NCBI RefSeq assembly: GCF_004762035.2
Contig: NZ_SIJK02000036.1
Coordinates: 1-54,395 of the forward strand
Source: Candidatus Chloroploca mongolica
Lineage (GTDB): Bacteria; Chloroflexota; Chloroflexia; Chloroflexales; Chloroflexaceae
Length of the DNA stretch: 54,395 nt
Direction: 5' to 3'
The position numbers and the translations under genes are program-made. The notes beneath the pieces were generated by a model. That model had not been told where the DNA came from. It searched no databases and saw only the letters and a program-made list of their open reading frames with translations. Shown here one piece after another: positions 26,765 through 44,691 of the stretch. Position 1 is the stretch's first letter; each line of letters begins with the position of its first letter.

Positions 26765-27079
26765 ACACTCTCCCTGTTGGAACTCCTGAGTGCGCTGCAG
26801 GGCTGCCCTATTCTGTGCAACATACGTCCATTCACTGAGCGAAACCTGGGCAACCCCGGCTTAGTATACCATGAATTGATACAATTGAGAATGTTTTCAC
26901 AGACAAGGCAAGTGCGCAAATTGACGCCTCCAGAAACATAACGGTGAACGAAATTTCTCGCACAATAAATACCTCTTATCTATTATTTAAGCAACTTATT
27001 GGCGAGAGCGTGTTGCGATGGTGTACACTAGAGCCTGTTTTATTCCGTTATGTATGGGTCTAGTTCGGAGGATCAGGTA
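26765..27079. other. Divergent intergenic region between pnt and the synthase operon
   Basis: Holds the pnt promoter (26863-26891, minus). For the plus-strand operon only a weak candidate is visible: TTGGCG (26999-27004), a 19-nt spacer and TACACT (27024-27029). The 26880-27000 stretch is AT-rich compared with its surroundings (AATAAATACCTCTTATCTAT), consistent with promoter DNA. No small ORF or RNA is recognised. Confidence 0.5.
26863..26891 (-). promoter_or_regulatory. Promoter of the pnt operon
   Basis: On the minus strand TTCTCA (26886-26891, four of six consensus bases), a 17-nt spacer, and TATACT (26863-26868). It lies about 100 nt upstream of the pntAA start. Confidence 0.55.
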
Positions 27080-28717
27080 ATGACGACCCTGGATACCGAT
27101 ACGCTGGAGATGGTACTGACGACTCTGCGTGATTATGCCGACCGGCAACTGAAATCCGAGTTTCTGAGGGAGTTGGACGAACGCGACGAGTTTCCGCACG
27201 AGGTGCTGAAGGATCTCTACGACCCTGAGAAATTTGGCCTGCACCTTATTTTCATCCCCGAGGAGTTCGGAGGACTCGGTGGGGGTGCCTACGATATTTA
27301 CCGCGTTTCCGAGCAGATGGCGCGCATCGACCTTGGGGTCGCGACGGGGGTACTGGCAACATTTCTTGGCACTGACCCGATCGTAGTGGGTGGCACCGAC
27401 GAGCAGAAGGCGCTCTGGATGGGGCGCATTGCCGACGAGGGCTTGCTGGTGGCCTATGGGGCGACTGAGCCGCAGGCAGGCAGTGATCTTGGCAGCCTAA
27501 CAACCCGGGCAACGCCAGTGTATGAAGATGGGCAACTCACTGGCTACCAGATCTCGGGGCGCAAGCAGTGGATCTCGAATGGTGGGGTGGCAACGCTCTA
27601 TACGATTCTTGCCAATACCGAGGGCGGGCCAACCTGGTTTGTCGTCGAGCGGGGTGCGCCTGGCTTTAGCTGGGGCAAGCCCGAAGATAAGCACGGTATT
27701 CGGGCCTCGAATACGGCAGCGCTCTTCCTTGATGAGGTCTTTGTGCCGGTCGAAAACCTAGTCGGCGGCGTCGAAGGGCAGGGGCTTGCGCAGGCGCAAG
27801 CGGTCTTTGGCTATACCCGGCTGATGGTCGCGGCCTTTGGGTTAGGTGGAGGCTGGAGCGCACTTGAGCGGGCGATTCAGTATGGGCAGACGCGCATTCA
27901 AGGTGGGGCACTGCTTTCGACGAAACAGGCCTACACCCACAAACTGCTGGTACCGAACGCGGTACGCCTGGAAGCCGCACGTGCGTATATCGAGTGGGTT
28001 GCGGAAAATATTGATGCGGGCGACCCTGGGCAGCAGACCGAGGGAGCAGTAGCCAAGTATTTTGCCACCGAGAGCGGCAATAAGGCGGCTGAAGATGCGA
28101 TCCAGGCCCACGGCGGCTATGGGTATACCAAAGAGTATATGGTCGAGAAGATCAAACGCGACGTGCGCATTACCTGTATCTACGAGGGTACCTCGGAGAT
28201 TATGGAGTGGACAATTGCGCGTGATCGGTGGCAGTTGCATCTGAAGACCCGTGGGGCCTACTACAACGATTGGGCAGCGAAACTCGATCAACTGGCCCGT
28301 ACCAACCCCGACACCGGGGCCGCCACAACCGCGCTGGCGTTGCGCGCACTGGCGGTGGTACTTGAACGCTGCCGGCTTGATCGGTTGACCCGCAATCAGC
28401 ATATTCTCTTCCGGCTTGGTGAGTTGATTGCGTGGGCGGAAACGGCCGCGATCTTTAGCGAGCGTGCCGCCAATAACCCAAGCAAGGCCGTGCCCTTTAG
28501 CCCCGAAACCCTGCGAATCATGGCGCGCATTCACGCCCGTGAAGCGGCCCTCAAGATCGCAACCGATGGGCTCCGCTGGTGCATCAGTGCAGGCCAGACC
28601 GACCCCAACCTGGCGGGGAGCCTCGGGCTACCGGCGATTTATCAGGCTCAGGCTGGGCAAATTGAAGATATGAACATCGTTGCCGAGCGGCTCAATGCCG
28701 CGTTCCCGGCAGAGTAG
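27080..28717 (+). CDS. Long acyl-CoA dehydrogenase, first gene of the synthase operon
   Basis: 545 residues, about 150 longer at the C terminus than ordinary acyl-CoA dehydrogenases. Seen: [16 protein letters not shown], flavin-contact [16 protein letters not shown] and [17 protein letters not shown], a conserved [16 protein letters not shown], and the catalytic Glu in [16 protein letters not shown]. The C-terminal extension is helical ([20 protein letters not shown]). It lies 39 nt upstream of the megasynthase in the same direction. The synthase has no enoylreductase domain, so this enzyme could work in trans on enoyl intermediates or oxidise the primer or product; either role is inference. 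The start follows GGAGG; a frame 30 nt longer has no ribosome site. Confidence 0.9.
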
Positions 28718-28756
28718 TTTCCCCCTGCGTGGGGGCGCTCCGGAGGAGCTATTTCC

Positions 28757-31700
28757 ATGGACACTTCGGCCTCGTGCGCCATCGCCATCGTAGGCGTTGG
28801 CGCGATGTTGCCTGATGCGCCTAATGCACGAGCATTCTGGCAGAATATTCTTTCCAGGCGCTACAGTATCAGCGAGACACCGGCTAATCGCTGGAGCCTG
28901 GCTGATTATTACGATCCTGATCCTGCGGCCCCCGACAAGACCTATACCAAGATTGGTGGGTGGGTACGGGATTTTCAGTTTGATTGGCAGCGTTTTCGCG
29001 TTCCGCCCCGCGTGGCGAATGCGATGGACGAGGGTCAGCAGTGGGCGGTCACGGTTGCCGCCGAGGTACTGGCTGATTATGGCTTTCCTGATCGTGCGCT
29101 CAATACTGACAATACCGGGGTTATCCTCGGCACGGCGATGGGCGGTGAGTTGCACTATCTGACCAATCAGCGCATCGTGGCCCCCGATTTTGCCAACTAT
29201 CTCGCAAGTACCGATGCCTTCAAGTCGCTTCCCACTGAGGTGCAGGCGGCGATGCTGGCACAGTTTTATGCTGAAGTGGGGCGAAAGTTGCCCGCGATCA
29301 GCGAAGACTCGATGCCGGGCGAGTTGCCGAATATCGTTGCCGGACGGGTAGCGAATGTGCTTAACCTGCGGGGACCCAACTTTATCACCGATGCAGCATG
29401 TGCTTCGACCTTTGCCGCCGTCGCGTCTGCGGTCGAGATGTTGAGTGAAGGCCATGTTGATGCGGTGATCACCGGTGGTGTCGACCGCAACATGGGCATT
29501 TCAACCTACGTGAAGTTCTGCAAGATCGGGGCGCTTTCAGCAACTGGGACACGGCCATTTGGCGATGGGGCCGATGGTTTTGTGATGGGTGAAGGCGCTG
29601 CGGCCTTCTTGCTCAAACGCCTGGCGGATGCGGAACGCGATGGCGATACGATCTACGCCGTGATCCGTGGGGTCGGGGCTTCGTCGGATGGCAAAGGCAA
29701 GGGCATTACGGCACCCAATCCGATCGGGCAGATCTACGCGATCGAGCGTGCGTGGAAACACGCCGGGCTCGATCCTGCGACCTGTACGCTGCTTGAAGCA
29801 CATGGCACGAGTACGCGGGTTGGCGATGTCGTGGAAGTCGAAAGCCTCAGCAAAGTCTTTGCGGGCGCGGAACGAGGGCGCATCGGCCTCGGGTCGGCCA
29901 AGAGCAATATTGGCCATCTCAAGGCCGGGGCCGGAGCCGCCGGGTTGCTCAAGGCGGCCTTCGCGGTTCACGAGAAGATCTTGCCGCCGACGCTCAATGC
30001 GGCACCGTCGAACCCGAGTGTGGATTTCACGGCAACGCCGTTTAGTCTACTTCACGAGGGACGTGAGTGGGAACGGCCAGCGGCCTTCCCTCGCCGCGCT
30101 GGGGTAAGTGCCTATGGATTTGGGGGCACCAATTTTCACCTGGTGCTTGAAGAATATGTGCCCGGGATGATCACCACTGGCCCACGCCGCTATCAGAGTG
30201 CTGCGGTTCCTGGTGATGCCGGAGGCGGAGAGGCGAAGAGTGTGAGCAAACATTATGCTGCCCCCGCTCAAGTGGATCAGAAGCCACCGTTGCGGGGCAT
30301 GCTGGCCCTTGGCGCAGCGACAAGCGCTGATCTGGCAGCGCGGATCACGGCGACCCTTGAGCGCGTAAAGGGCGGTTGGACACCGCCGCTTGCTGCGCCG
30401 GAGCGGGCCGAACTCCGTCAACCCGAGCGGCTCGTCGTGGATTTTGGCGAGGCAAGTGACCTAGCCGAGAAACTGGGCAAGGCAGCGCGGGCAGCGGGGT
30501 TGAATAATCCGGCTGCATGGCGACCCCTTGCCGCCCAGGGCATCTTCCGGGGCAGTGGCACAGCTTCCGGGAAGGTGGCCTTCCTCTTCCCCGGCCAGGG
30601 TAGCCAGTACCTCAATATGGGGCGTGAGTTGGCCCAGCAGTCAGCCGCTGTTGCCGCCGTCTTTGCCGAGGCCGATGCGGTGATGACACCGATCCTTGGG
30701 CAACCGTTGACGAGCTATCTCTTTGTGGATAGCAACGATCCGGCGGTGATCAAGCAGGCCGAGCGGGCACTGATGCAGACGGCGATTACCCAGCCGGCGA
30801 TGCTGACGCTCGATATCGCGCTGCTCACGCTGCTCTCGGAGTATGGCGTTCGTCCCGATATGGTGATGGGCCATTCGCTTGGGGAGTATGGAGCACTGGT
30901 GGCGGCGGGCATCATGCCCTTTGCTCAGGCGCTCGAGGCGGCAGCCGCCCGTGGAGCCGAGATGACCAGGGTGAGCGTGGAAGATAATGGCTGGATGGCC
31001 GCCGTCATGGCCCCGCTTGAGGTGATCGAGAGCACGCTCAAAGAGGTTGATGGCTATGTGGTTGCAGCCAACCTCAATAGCTACAGCCAGGCCGTGATCG
31101 GTGGCGCAAGCCGGGCCGTCGAGCAAGCGATCGACCTCTTTGTTAGTCGTGGCTTCCAGGCCCAGCGCATCCCGGTGAGCCATGCCTTCCATACGAGCAT
31201 TGTCGCCCCGGCGTCGGGGCCGTTGCGCAAGGTGCTCGACCGCTTGCACATCCGTGAGCCCGAACTGCCGCTGGTTGCCAATGTGACCGGCGAACTCTAT
31301 CCGACGACGGTTGAGGGCATCAAGGATATTCTGGAGCGCCAGATTGCCTCGCCGGTGCAGTGGGTCAAGGGACTCGAGACGCTCTATCGCGAGGGATGCC
31401 GGATCTTTATCGAATGCGGCCCCAAGAAGGCGTTGAAGGGCTTTGTTGATGATGTGCTTGGTGACAAAGGCGATGCTGTTGCGCTCTTTACCAACCATCC
31501 CAAAACGGGTGAAATTGCCAGCTTTAACCAGGCGCTCTGCGGGCTCTATGCGGCAGGCCTGGATGCAGCCGAGCCGGTCGCAGTCGCGGCGCCTCGACAG
31601 GTCGCCGCAGCCTATGCCCACGAGACGCCGGTGGTAACCCATCGTCTGACGACAAATGTTGCGCATTTGCCCGCGCTTGAGGCCGAAATGGGGCAGGCGA

Positions 31701-34700
31701 GCCCGGTTGAGGATACCCGCGAGATGAGCCAGGGTGACTATCACGGAGCGCAGCACGGCAACGGGAACGGGCACGGGCTCGAAGCCTTGAGTGCCCTGTT
31801 GACACAGGCGCTTCGGCAAGGGGGCGCAAGCCCGGCAGGTCAACCGGCAGCCTATGACCGGAACGTGCCGCCAACCGGCTCGATTGTGATTAGCGGCACC
31901 GGCCTTGGCTTGCCGGGGGCCGAGAAGAGCTTGATGGCGCTCGATAACGCCGAGCGCATCCTGCGTGGCGAGCAACTGATTGATCTGATCCCCGAGCGCT
32001 TCCGTCGGTTGATGGTCAAGAAGCATGTGACTCGTGTGGTCAAAGGCGAAGACGGCGGTGGCAGTTTCCAGGAAATTGATCACGCCGACGATGTCATCCG
32101 GCTCGCGGGGCGTGCAGGGAGCTTTGACCTCACGGCGGAATACGGCGTCTCAGCCAATCTCGTGGAGGCGCTGGACATCACCAGCCAGTTGGCGATGGCG
32201 GCAGGGCTTGATGCGCTGCGTGAGGCCGGCCTTCCGCTGGTACAGACCTACAAAAAGACGAGCAAGGGCACCTTCTTGCCCGAGCGCTGGATGCTGCCCG
32301 AGGCGTTGCGTGACGAGACTGGCGTTATCTTTGCAAGCGCCTTCCCTGGCTATGACCAGTTGAGTGGCGAATTGCAGCGCTACTACGAGCACGAGGGGCG
32401 ACTAGCCCTGTTGCAAGAACTGGAAGCACTGCGCAACGAGACGAGCGACGAGGCAACGCTGGTGCGCCTGACCAGGCGGATCAACGAGGTGCGCGACGAG
32501 ATCGAACGCAAGCCGTACACGTTTGACCGGCGCTTCATCTTCCGCATCCTGGCGATGGGTCACAGCCAGTTGGCCGAGTATATCGGCGCACGCGGGCCAA
32601 ATACGCATGTCAACGCGGCATGTGCCTCGACCGCACAGGCTGTTGCGATTGCCGAAGACTGGATCCGCAGTGGGCGCTGTCGGCGCGTGCTGGTGGTGGG
32701 CGGCGACGATGTCACAAGCGAGCATATGCTCGAATGGGTTGGCGCAGGCTTCCTCGCAACAGGGGCAGCGGCAACTGATGATGCTGTCGAAGAGGCTGCG
32801 TTGCCGTTTGATCGGCGTCGGCATGGCACGTTGCTCGGCATGGGCGCGTGTGCCTTGCTGGTCGAGAGCGAGGATGCCGTCCGCGAGCGTGGCATGCGCG
32901 GCATTGTCGAGGTGCTCTCGAGTGAGACGAATAACAGCGCCTTCCACGGAACGCGCCTGGATGTGCAACACATCAGCCAGATTGTTGACAATCTGGTGCG
33001 GGCCGCCGAGCAGCGCTTTGGGTTGGATCGGCGCACCATGGCCGCACAGACAGTCTTTATCTCGCACGAGACCTTTACGCCGGCCCGGGGCGGCAGTGCT
33101 TCCGCCGAAATCGCCGCCTTGCGGCACACCTTTGGGCCAGCGGCGAGCGACATTGTCATCGCCAACACCAAAGGCTTCACCGGTCACCCGATGGGGGTGG
33201 GCATCGAAGATGTGATCGCAGTCAAGATCCTGGAGCATGGCATTGTGCCGCCGGTACCCAACTACCGCGAGCCCGACCCCGAACTCGGCCAGTTGAACCT
33301 GAGCCGCGGCGGACGTTACCCGGTGCGCTATGCGATCCACCTGGCGGCAGGCTTTGGCTCGCAGATCGCGCTGACCTTGCTGCGACGCATTCCAGGGTCA
33401 ATCGAGCGCATTGATCAGCGCCAGCGCTATGATTACTGGCTGGCGCAGGTGAGTGGCTATGACCGGGCCGAGACCGAGGTGGTGAAACGTGTCTTGCGGA
33501 TCAAGGCCCAGGGTGCGCCAAAGCGCGTACCCATGCCAAGTGACTGGGTTCCTGGCACCGGGCCGGTGCAGCGGGCGGCGTTTGCGCCTGATGTAGCCGG
33601 ACATCACCTGGCGGTTACGCCAGCAAGCAATGGGCGTTCGAGTGCGCCAGCAGTGGTGAGTCGACCAGCAACCCCGGCTCCGGTCGCACCAGTGCCCGTC
33701 CCGGTTGCAGCCAAGCCAGTGGAAGCGGTAGCACCCGCACCAGTTGCGCACAAACCGGTTGTTGCGCCACCCCCGGTTGCCCCAGCACCGGCGGCACCAG
33801 TCGCGCCAGTGGCTCCAGCACCGGTGGCACCAGTCGCACCAGTGGCTCCAGCACCGGTGAGCGATCCGGTCGCCGAGACGGTGCTGGCCCTTGTCGCCGA
33901 CAAGACCGGCTACCCGAGCGAGATGCTCGATCTCGACCTCGACCTTGAGGCCGACCTGGGCGTCGACACGGTCAAGCAGGCCGAGACCTTTGCGGCGGTG
34001 CGCGAGGCTTTCAACATCCCCCGCATCGAGAACTTGAAGCTGCGCGACTACCCGACGATGCGGCACGTGATTGGCTTTGTGCGTACACAGCGGCCTGATC
34101 TCGCCGCACCAACCGCCGCTGCACCCGTCGCCGCAGCACCACAATCGGTCGTCGTCAGTGCGCCAGCAACCGTGAGCGATCCCGTGGCCGAGACGGTACT
34201 TGCGCTGGTCGCCGAAAAGACCGGCTACCCGAGCGAGATGCTCGATCTCGACCTCGACCTCGAGGCCGACCTGGGCGTCGACACGGTCAAGCAGGCCGAA
34301 ACCTTTGCGGCGGTGCGCGAAGCCTTCAACATCCCCCGCATCGAAGACCTGAAGTTGCGCGACTACCCGACGATGCGGCACGTCATCGGCTTTGTGCGCA
34401 CGCAGCGGCCCGATCTCGCCGCGCCGGTGGCAACACCGGTGGCAGCACCGGTCGCCGTAGCGCCCCAACCGGTCGCCGTCAGTGCGCCAGCCGTCGTGAG
34501 CGATCCCGTGGCTGACACGGTGCTCAATCTGGTCGCCGATAAGACCGGCTACCCGATTGAGATGCTTGATCTCGACCTCGACCTCGAGGCCGACCTGGGC
34601 GTCGACACGGTCAAGCAGGCCGAAACTTTTGCGGCGGTACGCGAAGCCTTCAACATTCCCCGCATCGAAGACCTGAAGCTGCGCGATTACCCGACGATGC

Positions 34701-37700
34701 GACACGTCATCGGCTTTGTGCGGACACAGCGGCCCGATCTCGCCGCGCCGGTGGCAACACCGGTGGCAGCGCCCGTCGCCGCAGCGCCCCAACCGGTCGC
34801 CGTCAGTGCGCCAGCAAGCGTGAGCGATCCCGTCGCTGACACGGTGCTCAATCTGGTCGCCGATAAGACTGGCTACCCGATTGAGATGCTTGATCTTGAC
34901 CTCGACCTTGAGGCCGACCTGGGCGTCGACACGGTCAAGCAGGCCGAAACCTTTGCGGCGGTGCGCGAAGCCTTCAACATCCCCCGCATCGAAGACCTGA
35001 AGCTGCGCGAATACCCGACGATGCGGCATGTGATCGGCTTTGTGCGGACACAGCGGCCCGATCTCGCCGCGCCAGTGGCAGCACTGACAGCGGTGGCCCC
35101 GACACCGGCGGCAGCAGTCGCACCTGCGGCGCCACCGGTGAGTCAGCCATCTCTCGATCCAATCACCGAGACGGTTCTTGGTCTGGTTGCAGAGAAAACC
35201 GGCTACCCGACCGAAATGCTCGATCTTGATCTCGATCTCGAGGCCGACCTGGGCGTAGACACGGTCAAGCAGGCCGAAACCTTTGCGGCGGTACGCGAAG
35301 CCTTCAACATTCCCCGCATCGAAGACCTGAAGCTGCGCGACTATCCGACGCTGCGTGATGTGATTGGCTTTGTGCATACACAGCGCCCCGATCTGGCGGC
35401 AGCAGCAGCGGCAACCGTGGCAACACCGGTCGCCCCGGCTGCGCAACTAGCAGTGGCAGGGCTCACACCAGTAAGCGATCAAGTCACGACAACGGTGCTC
35501 AACCTGGTCGCCGACAAGACCGGCTACCCGATTGAAATGCTCGATCTCGACCTCGACCTCGAGGCCGACCTGGGCGTAGACACGGTCAAGCAGGCCGAAA
35601 CCTTTGCGGCGGTACGCGAGGCCTTCAACATCCCCCGCATCGAAGACCTGAAGCTGCGCGACTATCCGACGCTGCGTGATGTCATCGGCTTTGTGTATAC
35701 GCAGCGCCCCGAAACCAGAAATGGCACAGCCGTGGTAAGCGAAGGTCTAGACACGATGACAACGGCTGCGTCAACTCAGACGACCACAGCGGCGCCTGCG
35801 GGGGCCTACAACCTGAGCGAAGCGAACCGAGCGCCGCGGCGCGTCGCCACGCCAGTGCTCCGGCCACCACTGGATCTCTGCAAAGCGACGAACGTCGAGC
35901 TTGGTGAAGGCACACGGGTCATGGTGATGCTTGATCGGAGTGGCATCGGCAAAGCGCTGGTAACACGGCTTGAAAAGCGGGGTGTAACCGTGCTGCCGAT
36001 CGAGGCACCACCGGAAGAGGGTGCCATTGTCGCGATGATCCAGGGCATGCTTGCCGAAGGGCCGGTTGACGGCATCTACTGGCTACCGGCCCTTGAGGTC
36101 GAGCCAGACCTGGAAGAACTTGACCTAGCAGAGTGGTACGAACTGAATCGTGTGCGGGTCAAGAATCTGCATCTGGCGACGCACACGCTCGTCGGGGCGC
36201 AACCCGAGCGCATTCCTTTCCTCGTGGTGGGAACGCGGATGGGCGGGCGGCATGGCTACGACGACGACGGGGCGGCGGCACCACTTGGCGGTGCGGTGAC
36301 AGGGTTTGCCAAAGCCTACAAACGCGAATACCCGTCGGTACTCGTCAAAGCGGTTGACTTCGAGACCGGGCGCAAGAGTGTCGAACCAGCCGAGAGCCTG
36401 ATCGCCGAAACACTGAGCGATCCAGGCATCGTTGAAGTCGGCTACTGTGACGGGCTACGGCTCAGCGTAAGCCTGGAAGAGCGCCACGCCTACAATGGCA
36501 ACTCGGGGATGGTCTTGACGCCCGAGACGGTCTATCTGGTGACGGGGGCAGCGGGGGGCATCACGAGTGCGATCATTGGCGACCTGGCGGCAGCCGGGAT
36601 GGGCGGGACGTTCTACCTGCTCGATCTAACGCCAGAGCCTGATCCTGCGGACGAGCATATCCGGCTCTTCCGGCAAGACCGGGCCGCGCTGAAGGCGGCG
36701 CTGATCGCGGAAGCCCAGGCACGCGGCGAGCGGCCAACGCCAGTGCAGATTGACCGGGGCATCATGGCGGTGGAACGCTCTGAGGCAGCGTTGCGGGTGA
36801 TCGAAGTGATCGAAGCAGCGGGCGGCACAGCCAACTACTACAGCCTCGACCTGCGTGATGCAGCAACGGTTGCCGGGGTTATTGACACCATTCGCGAACG
36901 CGAGGGCCGCATTGACGTGCTGCTGCACGCAGGCGGCATCGAAATCAGTCGAGCGTTGAGTGAAAAAGCGCACGACGAATTCAGCCGGGTCTTTGACATC
37001 AAGGCTGATGGCTTCTTCAACATGCTGCGGGCGGCCAAGGGTCTGCCGATTGGCGCAACCGTCGCCTTCAGTTCCGTGGCCGGGCGGTTTGGCAACAGTG
37101 GTCAGACCGACTACAGCGCCGCCAACGACCTGCTCTGCAAAATCAGCAGCAGCATGCGGCGCTGGCGCCCCGACACACGCGCCATCGTAATTGACTGGAC
37201 AGCCTGGGGCGGGATCGGGATGGCGACCCGTGGGTCGATTCCACGGATTATGGAGATGGCGGGGATTGATATGCTCCCCCCCGAGGTTGGTATCCCAACG
37301 ATCAGGCGCGAATTGACGGCGGGCGACACCCGCGACGAAATCGTCGTCGGGCTGCGCCTGGGTGTACTCACCGAAGAGTTTGACCCGACAGGCGGGCTCG
37401 ACCCGGCGAAAGTCGCGACAACGCTGGCTGCGCGTGAGCGGCCATACCTGATGGTCGGCACAGTCGAAGCGGCCAGGCTGTATGGTGGCATCATTGCAGA
37501 GACCTCACTTGACCCGCACGAGCAACCGTTTCTGTACGATCATCAGATCGAAGGGACACCGGTGTTGCCGGGGGTGATGGGCACCGAAGGCTTTGCGGAG
37601 GTAGCGGGGTTGTTTGCCCCTGGCTTCCGTCTGGCACGAATCGAGCATGAACGGCTCGATAGCCCGGTCAAATTCCATCGCAGCCAGCCACGCACGCTGA

Positions 37701-38326
37701 CGCTGCGGGCGGTCATTCGGCCTACCGAAGGTGGTGATCTGCTGGCCCAGACCACGTTGAGCTCCACGTTCCAACCAGTGGTAGCCCCGGGGCAGACCCC
37801 ACCGCCGGCGCAAGAGACGGTACACTTCCGGGCCGAGGTTCGCCTCACCCGTGGGGAGTTGATCCCGGCGCAAACCGAACGACCGATTGCGGACGAGCAT
37901 GCCCGGGTGATCGAGCGAAGTGAGATCTACAAAGTCTACTTCCACGGCCCGGCGTATCAGGTGCTTGAGAAGGTTATGCTGAGCGACGAGATGGCGATTG
38001 GCATGCTGGCGGGCGATCTGCCACCCGATAGCACTCCCGCCAACGCCGAGCACATGGTTGACCCACGTTTGCTGGAGTTGTGCTTCCAGACGGCGGGCGT
38101 GTGGGAGATCGTCCAGACCGAGGCAATGGCATTGCCATCCTCACTCGACACGCTTGAGGTCTATCGGCATCTGGAAGAGGCTGGCGACGCGCAGATCTAC
38201 GCCATCGTCACCCCGGTCGAGAACGGCACGAGCTTTGACGCCCGGGTTGTTGACGACCTGGGGAACGTCTATCTTGATCTGCACGGCTATCGGACAGCAC
38301 GCTTGCCGGGGACGGCGCACCTGTAG
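28757..38326 (+). CDS. Iterative type I synthase KS-AT-KS-ACP(x6)-KR-DH (secondary-lipid/polyketide type)
   Basis: 3189 residues. KS1 (about 3-465) is complete: Cys215 in DAACAST, His349 in EAHGTST, His387 in SNIGHLK. AT (about 604-900): Ser707 in GHSLGEY; VSHAFH (His809/812) is the malonyl-type motif. KS2 (about 1042-1546) is divergent but has Cys1289 (NAACAST), His1437 ([12 protein letters not shown]) and His1477 (FTGHPMG), so it is not a Cys-less chain-length factor. A Pro/Ala linker leads to six carrier domains (about 1703-2318) with Thr at the phosphopantetheine position. KR (about 2370-2905): VTGAAGGI, Ser2773 and Tyr2786 (TDYSAAND). DH (about 2905-3185): His2929 in [12 protein letters not shown]; the usual Asp position is Glu3107 ([10 protein letters not shown]). 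No methyltransferase, enoylreductase or thioesterase. It resembles PfaA/HglE-type lipid synthases in outline; the product is unknown. RBS GGAGGAG. Confidence 0.93.
33863..35713 (+). repeat. Six tandem ACP repeats inside the synthase gene
   Basis: Six units with spacings of 105-110 codons. The candidate attachment residues are Thr1738, 1843, 1951, 2059, 2169 and 2276, all encoded ACG in GVDTVKQAE. The units are almost identical at DNA level through the [19 protein letters not shown] to KLRDYP core, while the Pro/Ala/Val linkers vary. Units 1-4 share TMRHVIGFV and units 5-6 share TLRDVIGFV, pointing to at least two rounds of duplication. Linkers after units 2 and 3 are also duplicated. Confidence 0.95.
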
Positions 38327-38335
38327 GAAAGAATA

Positions 38336-38372
38336 GCGTTGGGCAAGCAGGATCCTCCTGCCTGCCCAACGC
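38336..38372 (+). terminator. Hairpin between the synthase and the PPTase gene
   Basis: GCGTTGGGCAAGCAGGA, loop TCC, TCCTGCCTGCCCAACGC: a 17-bp stem with one mismatch, 9 nt after the synthase stop, with no T-run. It may lower readthrough into the downstream genes or stabilise the 3' end of the long message. Confidence 0.5.
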
Positions 38373-38395
38373 CCAACCAGGCGCATAGGAAAGAC

Positions 38396-39160
38396 ATGAT
38401 TGACTGGCTGATCCAACAACGATCCGATCTACCGGCCGTAGCACCCGAGCTATGGCTAAGTGTACCCGAACGCGATCAGATGCGGACACTCCGCATGGAG
38501 AAACGGCGTGAAGAGTGGTTGCTCGGACGTTGGACAGCACGGCGGCTCATCCAGGCCTGGGCACAACGCGAGCTTGGCTTCGCGCCCCACCCGACTGAGC
38601 TGATGATTCTGCCCGCCCCTGATGGCGCACCCGAAATTCATGCGCTTGATCCCGCCTTGCGGATGGCCCTCGGGACGGTACGCCTCACGATCAGCCATAG
38701 TGCGGGGCAGGCCTTTTGTGCGCTGGCCCCTGCGGGAGCACCGGTGGGTGCCGACATCGAGCAGATTGCACCACGCCATAGCAACTTTGCCGAAACCTAC
38801 TACACGCCTGGCGAGATCGCGCTGCTCGCAGCAACTGACCCCTCCCACTACAACGTCTTGCTCAATGCGATCTGGAGCACGAAAGAGGCTGTACTAAAAG
38901 CCTTACGACACGGCTTACGGGTTGATACACGTCTTGTCGAATGCCTGGTACCACTGCCCGACGCAGCAGACCAGGATGCTGACTGGCGACCATTTCTCGC
39001 CCACTGCGATCCGTCGCTTGGCGCACCACCGGCTGGCGTACGCTGCTGGTGGCGCCAGGATCACCATGTTGTCCTGACGATTGCCGCCATTACCCCACGT
39101 CTCGTCACCGAACAGGTAGGCAACAAACCGGTTATCCAGTCACCGCTGTATGGAGTATGA
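38396..39160 (+). CDS. Sfp-type 4'-phosphopantetheinyl transferase
   Basis: 254 residues. Transfers phosphopantetheine from CoA to carrier domains, here most likely the six ACPs of the adjacent synthase. Seen: RRLIQAWAQRELG near the N terminus, LTISHSAGQAFCALAP, the Mg-binding GADIEQIAPR, and WSTKEAVLKALRHGLRVD, matching the WxxKEAxxK motif. Length and two-lobed layout match the Sfp class rather than AcpS. RBS AGGAAAG before ATG 38396; an earlier in-frame ATG at 38339 would run through the hairpin. It ends 12 nt before the carboxyltransferase gene. Confidence 0.93.
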   Translation: MIDWLIQQRSDLPAVAPELWLSVPERDQMRTLRMEKRREEWLLGRWTARRLIQAWAQRELGFAPHPTELMILPAPDGAPEIHALDPALRMALGTVRLTISHSAGQAFCALAPAGAPVGADIEQIAPRHSNFAETYYTPGEIALLAATDPSHYNVLLNAIWSTKEAVLKALRHGLRVDTRLVECLVPLPDAADQDADWRPFLAHCDPSLGAPPAGVRCWWRQDHHVVLTIAAITPRLVTEQVGNKPVIQSPLYGV

Positions 39161-39172
39161 GAGTCGAGACTT

Positions 39173-40711
39173 ATGATGGAAGATTTTGTTCGTAAGCTCC
39201 GTGAACGCAAAGCCATTGCGGCTGGCACAGAAAAAGATGCCGCTGCGCAGCATCAGAAGGGTCGCCTGACGGCACGTGAGCGGATCGAGGTATTGTTCGA
39301 CCCCAATAGTTTCAATGAGATTGATACGCTGGTGACTCCGCGCTACGAGAGCTATATGGGTGGCAAGGGGTCGCGGTTTGGTGATGGCGTCGTGACTGGG
39401 TTTGGCTTGATCAATGGGCGCCAGGTCTTTGCGGCGGCGCAGGATGCCAGCGTGATGGGCGGCTCACTCGGCGAGATGCATGCGAACAAAATCGTCAAAG
39501 CGATGCGGATGGCCCTGAGTTATGGCTGTCCTTTTGTGGCGCTAAATGACTCGGGTGGGGCACGCATTCAAGAGGGCGTTGATAGTCTGGGGGGGTATGC
39601 CCGGATCTTCGATGCCAACTGCGAAGCCTCGGGGGTGATTCCGCAACTCTCGGTGATCCTCGGGCCATGTGCTGGCGGCGCCGTCTATTCGCCTGGGCTC
39701 ACTGATTTTATTTTCATGACCGAAAACAGCTATATGTTCATCACTGGCCCGGAAGTCGTGCGCTCGGTGATGCAAGAGCAGGTCAGCCAGGAAGAACTGG
39801 GCGGCGGACGAATTCACGCGACAGAGAGTGGGGTGGCGCACTTTCTCTCACGCGATGACCAGGAGTGTCTGTTGAAGGTGCGGGAATTGCTGAGCTACCT
39901 GCCCTCGAATAATATGAGTGACCCGCCGTATGTACCGCCCCACGATGACCCCGAGCGTCGCTGTCCTGAGCTTGAGGAACTGGTACCGGTTGATCCGCAG
40001 AAGCCCTACGATGTGCGGGAAGTCATTGCCAGCATCGTGGATGACGGGCGTTTCCTGGAGGTTCACGAGCTCTGGGCGCAGAATATGGTGGTGGGCTTTG
40101 CGCGCCTGGATGGGTATGTGGTCGGGCTGGTAGCGAATCAGCCGATCCATCTCGCAGGCACGATTGACATCAAAGCTTCGATCAAAGCGACGCACTTTAT
40201 TCGCATCTGTGATGCTTATAATATTCCGATCATCACTTTGCAAGATGTCCCCGGCTTTTTGCCTGGCACGAGTCAGGAATATGGAGGGATCATCCGCAAC
40301 GGTGCGCGGCTGATTTATGCCTATTCAGAGGCAACGGTGCCCAAACTCATGTTGATTCTGCGCAAGAGCTATGGTGGGGCCTACTGCGTCATGAGTAGCA
40401 AAGGGCTCCGGGGCGACTTGCTCTATGCCTGGCCCAACGCCGAACTGGCGGTGATGGGGGCGGCAGGGGCGGTCAATATCCTCTTCCGCAACGAGGTCAA
40501 GGCGGCTGATGATCCGAAGGCACGGAGTCGAGAACTGGTGAGCGAGTATCAAGAGAAGTTCAACAACCCGTATGTTGCGGCGGCACGTGGTCTCATTGAC
40601 GACGTAATCGAGCCACGCGACAGCCGCCGTGTACTCGTGCGGGCGCTGCACGTGACGCTCTCGAAACGTGACCGGCACCTGCCCAAGAAGCATGGCATTT
40701 CACCGATGTAG
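39173..40711 (+). CDS. Acyl-CoA carboxylase carboxyltransferase subunit (PccB/AccD5-like)
   Basis: 512 residues. Transfers the carboxyl group from carboxybiotin to an acyl-CoA, giving malonyl- or methylmalonyl-CoA. Seen: GRLTARERIEVLFDPNSFNE, DASVMGGSLGEMHANKI, LNDSGGARIQEGVDSLGGY, GPCAGGAVYSPGLTDF, and the C-terminal half DVPGFLPGTSQEYGGIIRNG and AVMGAAGAVNILFR. The residue that in Streptomyces PccB/AccB discriminates propionyl- from acetyl-CoA (Asp or Ile in GGAYxVM) is Cys405 here, so specificity cannot be read off. Its place beside a malonyl-type AT suggests malonyl-CoA supply. Lies 12 nt after the PPTase gene. Confidence 0.92.
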   Translation: MMEDFVRKLRERKAIAAGTEKDAAAQHQKGRLTARERIEVLFDPNSFNEIDTLVTPRYESYMGGKGSRFGDGVVTGFGLINGRQVFAAAQDASVMGGSLGEMHANKIVKAMRMALSYGCPFVALNDSGGARIQEGVDSLGGYARIFDANCEASGVIPQLSVILGPCAGGAVYSPGLTDFIFMTENSYMFITGPEVVRSVMQEQVSQEELGGGRIHATESGVAHFLSRDDQECLLKVRELLSYLPSNNMSDPPYVPPHDDPERRCPELEELVPVDPQKPYDVREVIASIVDDGRFLEVHELWAQNMVVGFARLDGYVVGLVANQPIHLAGTIDIKASIKATHFIRICDAYNIPIITLQDVPGFLPGTSQEYGGIIRNGARLIYAYSEATVPKLMLILRKSYGGAYCVMSSKGLRGDLLYAWPNAELAVMGAAGAVNILFRNEVKAADDPKARSRELVSEYQEKFNNPYVAAARGLIDDVIEPRDSRRVLVRALHVTLSKRDRHLPKKHGISPM

Positions 40712-40764
40712 GAAGAGTTCCGCACGACAATGCAAGTTGCATTGGTATGCACGAAGGTGCTTGT

Positions 40765-42246
40765 ATGTTCAAACGAGTATTGATCGCCAACCGAGGCGAA
40801 ATTGCCGTGCGCATGGTGCGCGCCTGTCGCGACATGGGCCTTGCGGCGATCGCAGTCTACGAGCCTGGCGATGAAGGGGCGCTGCATGTGCGCCTGGCCG
40901 ACGAGGCGTATCCTATTACCTCACCCCTCGGCTACCGTGACCCCGAAGCAATGCTCGCGGTGGCGCGGGTAAGCAAGGTTGATGCGGTGCATCCAGGGTA
41001 TGGGCTTATTTCCGAGCATCCAGGGTTTGCGCAGGCATGCGAAGCGGCTGGAATCGCCGTGGTCGGACCGGGGAGTACGGTACTGGCCAACGTGCGTGAT
41101 AAGGTTGGGGCAGTGGCCCACGCCAGGGCCGCCGGCATTCCCACAACCCGGCCGTCAAGCCGGAGCTTTATGCCCGATGAGACCGCAGCGTTGTTGAACG
41201 AGGCCGATCTGATTGGGTATCCGCTGGTTGTCAAAGCATGTGCGGGCGGACGGGGGCGAGGTACCTCGGTGGCGCGAGGCCCGGATGATCTGCTCGACGT
41301 GGTGCGGCGTTCATCAACGGCGGCTCAGGCGGTCTACCTCGATCCGCAGGTTTACCTGGAAGAGGCTGTGCTGCCTTCACGGTATATCGAGGTGCCGATC
41401 CTGGGCGATCATCACGGCAACCTGATCCATCTGGGTGAACGTGACGGCTCGATCCAGCGGAATACGCGCAAAGTCATCGAGGAGACCCCGGCGCCAAACC
41501 TGAGTCAGGCGCAACGCGAGGCGATCTGGGCAACGGCACTCCAGGTAGCACGGCTCTTTTCGTGTCGCAGTGCATGTACGATCGAGTTTGTGCTTGACGG
41601 CGAAGGCCGCCACTTCTTCACCGAGGTCAAGCCGCGCCTCCAGGTCGAACACCTAGTCAGCGAGATGGTCACGCGCATTGATGTGGTGCGTGAACAGTTG
41701 CGCATTGCGGCAGGGCTACCACTCGAATTTACGCAAGAAGAAGTACATCTGCGGGGACATGCGATCTTCTGCCGCATCAATGCCGAAGATCCGTGGCACG
41801 GCTATCTGCCCAGTCCGGGGCACATCACTAGTTTTCGCGTGCCAGGCGGTCCAAATGTCCGGGTGGACACCTATGTCTATGCGGGGGCCGAAGTCCCTGT
41901 GCGCTACGATTCACTGCTGGCGAAACTGGTTGCGTGGGGGCCAACCCGCGAGGAGTGCCTGAACCGGGTGCAGCGGGCACTGCAAGAATTTCAGATTACC
42001 GGTATCCAGACAAACCTCGCGCTACTGCGGCTCATCCTGAATGATAACGCCTTTATCGCGGGAACCTACACCACCGAATTCAGCCGACGACGTTTGATGG
42101 AGATGCCACCGCTCAGCGATGATACGAGCGATCTGGCCGCGATTGCGGCGCTCGCCTATCTGCGGCGCACCCAGGCGGCGCAGCCGGCGATCCCCGAAGC
42201 CTTCACGAGTGGCTGGCACCGTGATAGTCGTCGTTTGCCACAGTGA
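40765..42246 (+). CDS. Biotin carboxylase subunit, divergent active site
   Basis: About 493 residues, ATP-grasp enzyme that carboxylates biotin on the carrier subunit. Overall fold motifs are clear: MFKRVLIANRGEIAVRMVRA, VRDKVGAVAHARAAGIP, RLQVEHLVSEMVTRID and GHAIFCRINAEDP. Several normally strict positions differ from E. coli AccC: the Gly-rich loop is KACAGGRGRGTSVA, the EMNxRIQVEH motif is EVKPRLQVEH (Asn to Lys289), RRHQK is RNTRK, and the His of PRHVEI is Tyr. The Lys and Glu ligands (KVIEE, IEF, E287, R291) remain. ATG 40765 has GAAGGTG upstream; another start lies 18 nt earlier. Confidence 0.88.
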   Translation: MFKRVLIANRGEIAVRMVRACRDMGLAAIAVYEPGDEGALHVRLADEAYPITSPLGYRDPEAMLAVARVSKVDAVHPGYGLISEHPGFAQACEAAGIAVVGPGSTVLANVRDKVGAVAHARAAGIPTTRPSSRSFMPDETAALLNEADLIGYPLVVKACAGGRGRGTSVARGPDDLLDVVRRSSTAAQAVYLDPQVYLEEAVLPSRYIEVPILGDHHGNLIHLGERDGSIQRNTRKVIEETPAPNLSQAQREAIWATALQVARLFSCRSACTIEFVLDGEGRHFFTEVKPRLQVEHLVSEMVTRIDVVREQLRIAAGLPLEFTQEEVHLRGHAIFCRINAEDPWHGYLPSPGHITSFRVPGGPNVRVDTYVYAGAEVPVRYDSLLAKLVAWGPTREECLNRVQRALQEFQITGIQTNLALLRLILNDNAFIAGTYTTEFSRRRLMEMPPLSDDTSDLAAIAALAYLRRTQAAQPAIPEAFTSGWHRDSRRLPQ

Positions 42247-42258
42247 GGAGGAGGAACT

Positions 42259-42753
42259 ATGCGTCGTTTCGTTGTCACCATTGATGAGACCGAGTTTGAG
42301 GTTGAAGTCATGGGGGTTGCCCGAGCAGAAGGATGGATCGAAGTGCAGGTGAATGGCGAGCCAATGCGCGTACTGCTCCCCTGGTCAGCAACCGCTGACC
42401 AGAGCGGATGGGCAATGGTCAACAATCGACCGCACGAGATCCAGCTTGATCATGATCTGCACTGGATCCAGACCCCGCATGGGCGGCACAGTGTGCAGAT
42501 CCGTGACCGTGACACGGCGACTGCCCGGCCGCGGAGTGGCGACGGGCGCATCAAAGCCCCCATCCCCGGCCTGATCGCCCGCATCCTGGTTGAACCAGGC
42601 CAGCATGTGGAAGTAGGGCAGCCAGTGCTGGTGCTAGAAGCGATGAAGATGCAGAACGAGATCACGGCCCCCCGCAGCGGAACGATCAGCATGCTCAACA
42701 TCCAGCCCGGTCAGAGTGTGAAACTGCACGAACTTCTGATCGAGATCAGTTGA
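42259..42753 (+). CDS. Biotin carboxyl carrier protein of the acyl-CoA carboxylase
   Basis: 164 residues. The C-terminal biotinyl domain carries EAMKMQNE with biotin Lys130, preceded by IPGLIARILVEPGQHVEVG and followed by SGTISMLNIQPGQSVKL. The N-terminal half is a beta-rich domain of the kind found in acyl-CoA carboxylase alpha chains; here it is a separate gene. It begins 12 nt after the biotin carboxylase with RBS GAGGAGGA. Last gene of the six-gene operon. Confidence 0.93.
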   Translation: MRRFVVTIDETEFEVEVMGVARAEGWIEVQVNGEPMRVLLPWSATADQSGWAMVNNRPHEIQLDHDLHWIQTPHGRHSVQIRDRDTATARPRSGDGRIKAPIPGLIARILVEPGQHVEVGQPVLVLEAMKMQNEITAPRSGTISMLNIQPGQSVKLHELLIEIS

Positions 42754-42778
42754 GATCGCGTCATACCGATAGGGCAAC

Positions 42779-42818
42779 TGATGGTCTGAGGGAGGGCAAG
42801 CCCTCCCTCAGACCATCA
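42779..42818. terminator. Perfect 19-bp hairpin ending the synthase operon and proC
   Basis: TGATGGTCTGAGGGAGGGC, loop AA, then its exact complement. It lies between the convergent biotin carrier gene and proC. The stop codon of proC begins one base after it. Confidence 0.75.
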
Positions 42819-43634
42819 CTACCGTTTGCCAAGTTCAACCGAGCGACGGTAGGCCGCCCAGATCGCATCAGACAGCACGGTACGCATCCCACCGCGTTCG
42901 AGTTCGGAAATGGCGGCGGCACTTGTCCCACCTGGCGATGTCACCGCATTGCGCAGTTGCGCCGGATGCAAGCCGCTCTGCTGCGCATAACGCACCGAGC
43001 CGAGCATCGTCTGTTGCACCAGTTCTTCGGCAATGCGCCGCGACAACCCGAGGTGAACCCCGGCATCAACCATCGCCTCCATCATCAAGAAGAAGTAGGC
43101 TGGCCCGGTACCATTGATTGCCGTCGCCATATCCAGGTAGGCCTCGGTATCGACAAACAGCGCACGTCCCAGCGCACCGAGAACAGTCTCGGCCCACTCA
43201 CGCTGCTCAAGGCTCACCTCGTGGGCCGCCGTCCAGACCGTCATGCCCTCACCGATCACTGCGGGAGTATTGGGCATACTGCGCACCACTGCCGGATGGA
43301 CGAGCGCCTCGGCGATGCTCTGGATCGTCGCCCCAGCCACGACCGAAATAGCCAGATCATCGTCGCGTAACGTATGTTGCAGCGGTGGCAGCACGCGCTG
43401 AAGTTGTTGGGGTTTGACCGCAAGAATAACAATGCGGCCCCAGCGTGCCGCCACGGCATTATCAGGGCTGGTATGCACTCCATAGGTCGCGGCCAGTTCG
43501 CGGCGTCGCTCTTCCCGCGGATGGCTGACCAGAATCTGGTCGGGGGTGACCAGTTCCTGGCGCAACAGACCGCCAATAACCGCCTCGCCCATCGCACCAG
43601 GCCCGATCACAGCAATTGGAAGGTGATGAAGCAT
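42819..43634 (-). CDS. proC: Pyrroline-5-carboxylate reductase
   Basis: NAD(P)H-dependent last step of proline synthesis. 271 residues. Seen: IAVIGPGAMGEAVIGGLL Rossmann start, ILAVKPQQLQRVLP, SVVAGATIQSIAEAL, RSMPNTPAVIGEGMT, NGTGPAYFFLMMEAMVDAG and the C-terminal signature VTSPGGTSAAAISELE. RBS GGAGAG. Confidence 0.96.
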   Translation of the reverse strand: MLHHLPIAVIGPGAMGEAVIGGLLRQELVTPDQILVSHPREERRRELAATYGVHTSPDNAVAARWGRIVILAVKPQQLQRVLPPLQHTLRDDDLAISVVAGATIQSIAEALVHPAVVRSMPNTPAVIGEGMTVWTAAHEVSLEQREWAETVLGALGRALFVDTEAYLDMATAINGTGPAYFFLMMEAMVDAGVHLGLSRRIAEELVQQTMLGSVRYAQQSGLHPAQLRNAVTSPGGTSAAAISELERGGMRTVLSDAIWAAYRRSVELGKR

Positions 43635-43929
43635 ATTTTCTCTCCACTGGGCCTGTGGCCCCGAACCTCACCCCAGGAGCGCGGGCAGTTCACCCGCTTT
43701 TGCCCTCGAAGCAATCCCTTATTGACGCACAGGCGCAAAGCTGCGCCTTGGGATCACACCAGCGAGAAGTCTACCGCAGATTGCGTGCAATGGCAACTGG
43801 TGCAGTGCAGCACAGCACAATCAGTGAGACTATGTTATTATCTATAAGCAACGATGTCTGTTCATATGTACAGCAAACAGCCAGCTTGCAGGGGATGTGC
43901 GGACACCCGGTTGGCTGCGGAGAAAAAGC
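43635..43929. other. Divergent intergenic region proC / SDR
   Basis: Contains a hairpin GCGGG/CCCGC followed by TTTT (43681-43700, plus strand), a short palindrome GGCGCA/TGCGCC (43732-43747), and for the SDR gene an extended -10, TGTTATTAT (43833-43841). No convincing ORF or RNA gene. Confidence 0.45.
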
Positions 43930-44691
43930 ATGACACAGCGCTTTCAAGACAAAGTCGCCATTGTGACGGGGGCATCATCGGGGATCGGGCGAGCAACGGC
44001 GGTCGGTCTGGCCCGTGAGGGAGCGAAGGTGACAATCTGTGCCGATCGCAATGTCGAGGGGCTGGAGGAGACACGCCAGGAACTGGCTGCCCTTGGGGCC
44101 GAGTGTCTGGCACTCCAGGTTGATGTACGGAGCCAGGCTGCCGTCGAGGGGTGCGTGCAGCAGACCCGCGAGCACTTTGGCACGATTGATATTCTCGTCA
44201 ATAATGCCGGTACCGGGCAATTCAGCCCGTTTCCGATGATGTCGAATGACGAGTATGACCGCGTGATGGATATCAACCTGCGTGGCACGTTCTACTTCTG
44301 CCGGGCGGTGCTGCCGATTATGCTCGAGCACGACTATGGCAAAATTGTCAATGTCACGTCAATTATGGGCGAGATTGCCGCGATGGGGCAGAGCATCTAC
44401 AATGCAAGCAAAGGGGCAGCCAAGCTGATGACCCAGGGCATTGCGGTTGATGTGGCAGGACGCAATATTAATGTCAACGCGGTCGCACCAGGCATGGTGG
44501 TCACCAATATGACCCAGCGCATGTTTGGTGACAAAGAGCGCGAACGCTATTTTGTCGAACGCATTCCGAAACGCCGCATTGGGCAACCCGAAGATATTGC
44601 CGGGCCAATCCTCTTCCTCTGCAGTGACGAAGCAAGCTACATCCACGGCACCACGCTGGTGGTCGATGGCGGGATGCTTTGTACCCGTTGA
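43930..44691 (+). CDS. Short-chain dehydrogenase/reductase
   Basis: Classical SDR of 253 residues. Seen: cofactor loop TGASSGIGRATAVG, DVRSQAAVE, NNAGTGQFSP, the catalytic Ser in VNVTSIMGEIAAMG, YxxxK as YNASKGAAK, and VAPGMVVTNM. ADRN after strand beta-2 suggests NAD preference (Asp), not NADP. The closest functional idea is an FabG-like or sugar/alcohol dehydrogenase; the substrate cannot be named. Monocistronic. Confidence 0.88.
   Translation: MTQRFQDKVAIVTGASSGIGRATAVGLAREGAKVTICADRNVEGLEETRQELAALGAECLALQVDVRSQAAVEGCVQQTREHFGTIDILVNNAGTGQFSPFPMMSNDEYDRVMDINLRGTFYFCRAVLPIMLEHDYGKIVNVTSIMGEIAAMGQSIYNASKGAAKLMTQGIAVDVAGRNINVNAVAPGMVVTNMTQRMFGDKERERYFVERIPKRRIGQPEDIAGPILFLCSDEASYIHGTTLVVDGGMLCTR

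Follow-up and report, generated by a model that had tools for sequence, protein, structure and literature searches.

Threonine at the six carrier sites of a Type R synthase of Candidatus Chloroploca mongolica and the phosphopantetheinyl transferase lineage that accompanies it

Introduction

Type R secondary lipid synthases have been described as one pfaA-like protein of the layout KS-MAT-CLF-ACP(3-6)-KR, with tandem acyl carrier protein (ACP) domains, followed by a gene for a phosphopantetheinyl transferase (PPTase) (Shulse and Allen 2011, PMC3098273). In the accessible part of that article an acetyl-CoA carboxylase gene lies between synthase and PPTase in one case, and Roseiflexus, Acidobacteria and Elusimicrobium are named as hosts; its main text holds no match for serine or threonine. 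The Pfa carriers of polyunsaturated fatty acid (PUFA) synthases use Ser, the change of Ser to Ala giving their inactive form (available part of PMC5067506), and the conserved Ser is treated as a requirement in what is accessible of PMC13291983. The present analysis concerns a stretch of 54,395 nucleotides from Candidatus Chloroploca mongolica (Chloroflexota; contig NZ_SIJK02000036.1, positions 1 to 54,395), hereafter the window, and a synthase encoded in it which, judged from its sequence, matches Type R by layout, PPTase, carboxylase neighbour and hosts, and which has Thr where the Pfa carriers have Ser. Its six tandem ACP domains are probably working carriers that bear the 4′-phosphopantetheine arm on Thr, installed by a co-evolved PPTase encoded downstream.

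Threonine at the six carrier sites

The original prediction stated that every repeat carries the motif GVDTVKQAE with Thr encoded by ACG, and both motif search and translation confirmed this at each of the six residues listed below. The sequence GGNGTNGAYACGGTNAAR gave six exact matches on the plus strand, at 33959, 34274, 34598, 34922, 35252 and 35573, and none in 100 shuffles, and all six translated repeats read GVDTVKQAE. The features concerned are the following.

28757..38326, plus strand: type I iterative synthase of 3189 aa, with ketosynthase (KS), acyltransferase (AT), ketoreductase (KR) and dehydratase (DH) domains in the order KS1-AT-KS2-6xACP-KR-DH (Pfam and NCBIfam domains, catalytic residues located)
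33857..35713, plus strand: six tandem ACP domains with Ala/Pro-rich linkers between them (motif, repeat and profile searches)
33968..33970, plus strand: ACP1 Thr1738, codon ACG (motif match and translation, as for the next five)
34283..34285, plus strand: ACP2 Thr1843, codon ACG
34607..34609, plus strand: ACP3 Thr1951, codon ACG
34931..34933, plus strand: ACP4 Thr2059, codon ACG
35261..35263, plus strand: ACP5 Thr2169, codon ACG
35582..35584, plus strand: ACP6 Thr2276, codon ACG

The PP-binding profile PF00550 matched all six repeats above its cut-off, so that the domains have the profile of canonical carriers with Thr, and not Ser, at the attachment position in 6/6. The PigH carrier pair was the sole PDB match at E <= 0.001, and its Ser was aligned to the window Thr. 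A different Ser hidden in the domain as the attachment residue, which would have overturned the prediction, was ruled out, since helix II of the six ACPs contains none; the nearby Ser residues lie at the N-terminal domain edge or at residue –17 (repeats 1 and 2), and no other Ser takes the site. Of the 11 PF00550 matches in the genome, six are those of the window array and three lie on C88, with one each on C97 (AcpP) and C72; none of them gives the operon a Ser carrier. AcpP and the three C88 carriers use TCG as their Ser codon, which indicates that ACG is not read as Ser in this genome. The six repeats form a young, homogenised array, with 85% matches between units, and its identical codons cannot be counted separately but amount to little more than one event. 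The independence of the Thr observation comes instead from the relatives, which carry Thr too.

Carriers of the relatives

The carriers of the relatives were collected with the second KS domain of the window as bait, which is blind to ACPs, and the ACPs were then found by a profile in which the attachment position was masked. In a scan of the genome collection the best 80 of 106 relatives were kept (64 Chloroflexota, 8 Acidobacteriota, 4 Myxococcota, 3 Pseudomonadota and 1 unplaced), and 67 of these 80 loci yielded 182 ACP stretches, of which 174 had Thr, none had Ser and 8 ended before the site, leaving 64 readable loci. Whole-genome searches, with seed genomes counted, gave bait matches in 23/297 Acidobacteriota, 65/283 Myxococcota and 1/397 Pseudomonadota, the last being the seed alone; at most five candidates were scored per genome in these bait scans, and at most nine in the PPTase scans of Acidobacteriota and Myxococcota described below, so that absences there are soft. 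A second ACP-blind set of 55 loci, five of them shared with the first scan, provided 135 stretches (127 Thr, 2 Ser, 6 ending before the site). All loci together comprised 539 stretches, which after removal of 14 ending before the site and of 147 duplicates left 378 non-redundant ACPs. The count of Thr-type members proposed with the original prediction came to 354 Thr, 24 Ser and no other residue among these 378.

Among the 24 Ser ACPs, 21 were ordinary DSIKR carriers and three were single ACPs in otherwise Thr-type Myxococcota synthases; the carriers read in close relatives were DTV(K/R)Q or DSIKR, and Thr was the sole residue in the readable ACPs of Type R loci from three phyla. The Thr sites of window and relatives used ACG 200 times, ACC 134, ACT 12 and ACA 8, and Thr was thus constant across all four of its codons although ACG and ACC sit one base from Ser codons.

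The chance that Thr reflects a decaying array, or a sequencing or genetic-code artefact, is next to nil. A single change could have spread through so young and homogenised an array, but the same residue recurs in other assemblies and phyla, all four Thr codons are in use, and Ser codons are normal in AcpP and the C88 carriers, so that sequencing error, code reassignment and drift were all rejected.

Two observations from the survey stand apart. The divergent Acidobacteriota synthases L214 and L286 (G297 and G300) have carriers of the type DTIKQAQ, and L286 has two domains that resemble KS1. Moreover, the contig of L121, labelled Hyphomicrobiales, carries a 41-residue ACP stretch identical to that of L122 from an Acidobacteriaceae draft, both being labelled bog, and it is possibly placed in a wrong bin.

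Natural exchanges of serine and threonine in Myxococcota

Of the 65 bait-positive Myxococcota genomes, 13 matched the whole bait (E 1.8e-170 or better); the match of the other 52, hereafter the sister group, was limited to its C-terminal part. The ACPs were read in 27 of these 52, mostly in short loci; all 27 had Thr carriers, and three of them also had Ser at the ACP that precedes the second KS. The Ser ACP of L271 (codon TCC) was 75% identical to its Thr-bearing counterparts, and the other Ser ACPs, of L237/L274 and L243/L275 (codon AGC), formed a pair. The Ser-bearing mixed proteins nested among Thr-type proteins at two places of a KS1 tree, a quick tree with long-branch warnings of which only this nesting was used, corresponding to at least two changes to which no direction was assigned. 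The site therefore tolerates Ser as well as Thr, with no third residue seen, as is expected of an attachment site: the carrier site keeps a hydroxyl.

The linked PPTase and its co-occurrence with Thr carriers

The PPTase gene lies just downstream of the synthase.

38339..39160, plus strand: Sfp-type PPTase with GADIE and WSTKEAVLK motifs and with R146 (38774) and F150 (38786) of the Thr-linked signature (PF01648, alignment)

The alignment makes ATG 38396 the likelier start. The protein matches PF01648 above the cut-off and has the catalytic motifs GxDxE and WxxKE...K, and the catalytic residues were invariant in 28/28 aligned PPTases. One short AcpS-type protein is the only other PPTase in the genome. 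The same genome also encodes a PfaA-like, Ser-type synthase (L009, G000:C88:31308-37160) with three tandem DSIKR ACPs and without a PPTase on its contig.

For the co-occurrence counts, the line for membership in the PPTase lineage was set at E <= 1e-50 after a gap had been seen, with G145 as a bait-negative genome of intermediate score, and the Thr cluster among 61 relatives was defined by a best ACP match at E <= 1e-30, Thr being read in all 23 genomes. A lineage PPTase was present in 23/23 Thr-cluster genomes versus 2/38 others, both exceptions being fragmented drafts, and it lay on the ACP contig in 20/23, with one partial match (G009). Nine further relatives had weaker ACP matches, eight of which could be read, all as Ser. 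In Acidobacteriota the lineage PPTase occurred in 18/23 bait-positive versus 1/274 bait-negative genomes, the remaining bait-positive ones having a more distant PPTase (2) or none of the lineage (3). In Myxococcota it occurred in 12/13 full-bait genomes versus 1/270 others, the 52 sister-group genomes being counted among the others; the thirteenth full-bait genome (G586) has a distant PPTase 4 kb away. Fisher tests were run on these tables with kinship left in.

In the sister group the PPTase match was more distant. In 41 genomes it shared both the contig and the frame length of the bait match, and in 2 more the contig; 8 genomes had it on a different contig, and 1 had none. From the equal contig and frame length, PPTase and synthase are apparently fused in 41/52 of these genomes; the PPTase motif was seen inside the synthase frame in 12, and Pfam domains were found for two (L267 and L271). 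The sister synthases L267-L273, L275, L280, L281, L284 and L285 measure 3065-4141 aa from stop to stop and hold Thr carriers and PPTase in one chain.

Domains that are inactive as carriers and merely space the protein, with acyl groups on a Ser carrier in trans such as AcpP, would be compatible with the dead S36T form of E. coli ACP (accessible parts of PMC3340395 and PMC13343975), and ACPs with Ser changed to Ala can, when added, still raise PUFA output (available part of PMC5067506). Such structural help from inactive ACPs does not serve here, since all the ACPs are Thr: every readable Type R ACP has Thr, so none would be active. Moreover, the site is never Ala or Gly, being Ser or Thr in 378/378, a PPTase lineage accompanies the synthases, fused to them in some cases, and the operon lacks another Ser carrier, all of which makes this arrangement improbable.

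It is still less probable that the Thr hydroxyl bears a direct acyl ester, a phosphate or another arm. Acylation and phosphorylation of Thr hydroxyls occur in other proteins, and no Thr-using PPTase was found in the open-access literature; against this stand the co-occurring PPTase with its invariant catalytic residues and the Ser/Thr differences at one ACP within PPTase-fused synthases.

PPTase phylogeny and signature residues

In a tree of 93 PPTases, a branch with 100/100 support separated 68 sequences, 65 Thr-assigned and three from Ser-type loci, from the other 25. When the 65 Thr-assigned PPTases were held as one clade, the likelihood was 2.54 higher and the clade was not rejected (p-AU 0.553). 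The alignment revealed an Arg (R146) after the GxDxE metal motif in 60/65 Thr-assigned PPTases versus 1/28 others, and a Phe (F150) in 61/65 versus 0/28, both of which the three PPTases from Ser-type loci lack. R146 and F150 were also seen in L262 and L264, which had not been used to find the signature; the carriers there are unread, and the genome of L262 has no bait match. The signature may mark a lineage and not a chemistry.

Weighing the evidence

The modification of Thr, which the original prediction held to be favoured by the adjoining PPTase gene, is supported as an inference by the constancy of Thr, the restriction of the site to Ser and Thr, the lack of a rival Ser and the co-occurrence of the PPTase. 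It is fairly likely that O-(4′-phosphopantetheinyl)-threonine occurs in bacteria of three or more phyla, that a Thr-adapted PPTase lineage installs it and so sets these lipid synthases off from the Ser-specific AcpS of the cell, and that in Myxococcota this PPTase is fused to its own substrate.

Several observations weigh against this reading. The S36T form of E. coli ACP is neither modified with 4′-phosphopantetheine nor acylated (accessible parts of PMC3340395 and PMC13343975); Thr is thus no substrate for AcpS there, natural Thr carriers come as a surprise, and an ordinary PPTase may not suffice for them. The Ser-type loci L277, L278 and L279, which come from the same taxonomic order as the window, have PPTases inside the 68-member branch, fused in L277 and L278 and in a separate long open reading frame (ORF) on the same contig in L279. 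These three loci weaken a strict Thr-specificity, and the lineage may not be confined to Thr carriers. Six of the 65 Thr-assigned PPTases (L250, L251, L252, L258, L263 and L266) come from genomes with unread ACPs, that of L251 (G502) having no bait match, and the Acidobacteriota genomes with DTIKQAQ carriers (PPTases L287 and L288; loci L214 and L286) have distant PPTases that lack the signature. Finally, with all candidates scored, no lineage PPTase was found in the draft genomes G129, G305 and G308 (bait-positive Acidobacteriota) and G449 (sister group). The question of whether Thr-type carriers always co-occur with one PPTase clade, raised with the original prediction, is thus answered in part: most do (23/23, 18/23 and 12/13), but not always, and Ser-type loci have near relatives of these enzymes.

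Alternatively, AcpS or another Sfp type could modify Thr, with a linked PPTase that has no preference for Thr and a linkage that reflects ordinary operon structure; this shares the Thr-modification step with the favoured reading and is unlikely. Ser-type synthases too have linked or fused PPTases, and the C88 Ser synthase, if active, needs either the AcpS-type or the Thr-linked PPTase, the only two of the genome, so that one of the two would then be broad. On the other side, E. coli AcpS fails on S36T, and the Thr-assigned PPTases share in R146 and F150 residues that are rare elsewhere.

Under the favoured reading, that of a Thr-borne arm installed by the linked lineage, it can be inferred that the window Thr residues are phosphopantetheinylated by the window PPTase, with roles assigned to the neighbouring genes. 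The Sfp-type PPTase would take the arm from CoA and place it on the hydroxyl of Thr; once loaded, the carriers would work with KS1, AT, KS2, KR and DH in the manner of other iterative secondary-lipid synthases. The acyl-CoA carboxylase encoded in the operon would supply malonyl-CoA, and the part of the missing enoyl reductase may be played by the acyl-CoA dehydrogenase homologue.

Ser is taken as the rule for attachment of the arm, and a natural family of Thr-type carriers that has a dedicated PPTase would, if true, add a post-translational modification. It would also suggest why Type R synthases keep a dedicated PPTase, would mean that Thr-type carriers escape searches that require Ser, and could provide an orthogonal pair of carrier and PPTase for engineering and protein labelling.

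The synthase and its operon

The other domains of the synthase and the neighbouring genes were assigned as follows.

29399..29917, plus strand: KS1 catalytic triad Cys215, His349, His387 (motif positions)
30875..31192, plus strand: AT with GHSLG Ser707 and HAFH motif (motif positions)
31871..33397, plus strand: KS2 in the place of the chain-length factor (CLF), with Cys1289, His1437, His1477 (motif positions); the ACP-blind bait
36530..37210, plus strand: KR domain with Ser2773, Tyr2786 and Asn2790 (domain match and residues)
37484..38314, plus strand: DH region with PKS_DH_N and PS-DH matches, His2929 in HxxxGxxxxP, and Asp3102
27050..28717, plus strand: acyl-CoA dehydrogenase-like protein, the conserved upstream neighbour (domain match)
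39173..40711, plus strand: acyl-CoA carboxylase carboxyltransferase (Pfam/NCBIfam)
40747..42246, plus strand: biotin carboxylase (Pfam/NCBIfam)
42259..42753, plus strand: biotin carboxyl carrier protein (BCCP; Pfam/NCBIfam)

The catalytic residues of KS1, KS2, AT, KR and DH are all present, and the remaining parts of the synthase machine look intact. The HAFH motif of the AT is presumably that of a malonyl-type enzyme using malonyl-CoA. The Cys, His, His of KS2 (31871-33397) were kept in 8/8 aligned sequences, the window included, and KS2 may thus be a condensing enzyme; it is 98% identical to KS2 of two Candidatus Chloroploca genomes.

The best NCBIfam match of the dehydrogenase homologue was acryloyl-CoA reductase, below its cut-off, which leaves it as a candidate trans enoyl reductase or desaturase. 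Of the scan loci, 39 measured at least 14 kb; among these the homologue lay upstream in 39/39, the PPTase was found by tblastn in 33/39 and the carboxylase parts in 29, 31 and 25, some of these loci ending too early to show the PPTase or carboxylase genes. Together the genes resemble a self-contained operon that is under selection. Four loci extend beyond BCCP (L043, L045, L048 and L049), and none of them showed the short-chain dehydrogenase/reductase (SDR) of 43897; most other loci end earlier. Two plus-strand ORFs in 42750-43847 have no Pfam/NCBIfam match and look spurious, and a minus-strand ORF at 42819-43634 matches pyrroline-5-carboxylate reductase.

Comparison with known systems

The window has one PfaA-like protein with six ACPs and an extra DH, and a PPTase gene downstream, as in Type R. 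It differs from the Type R notation, as far as given in the accessible part of PMC3098273, in a second KS that keeps Cys-His-His and in a DH after KR. The likeness to PfaA of the PUFA synthases (TIGR02813) covers KS, AT, tandem ACPs and KR, the window protein reaching 1230 bits against a cut-off of 1010; the Ser-type DSIK tandem ACPs of Pfa are absent from it, and the Pfa work is divided over PfaA-D, unlike that of the window synthase. No PfaB, PfaC or PfaD partner stood among the neighbours scanned at 27050-44691 (acyl-CoA dehydrogenase, PPTase, carboxylase subunits and SDR), the search for them being confined to these neighbours.

No report of natural Thr-type carriers was found in the open-access literature, which was also searched for DTVKQ-type strings and Thr-for-Ser phrases. 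A 1989 study is said to have dealt with spinach ACP-I bearing Thr or Cys at the site. The S36T form of E. coli ACP has Thr at the same position; there it is a mutant, and here Thr is the natural, conserved state. With other Sfp-type PPTases the window enzyme shares PF01648, GxDxE and WxxKE...K, and it differs from them in the Arg and Phe after the metal motif and in standing across a 100/100 branch from 25 others. The synthase family is thus known in print as Type R, and what appears new is Thr as its attachment residue together with a matching PPTase lineage.

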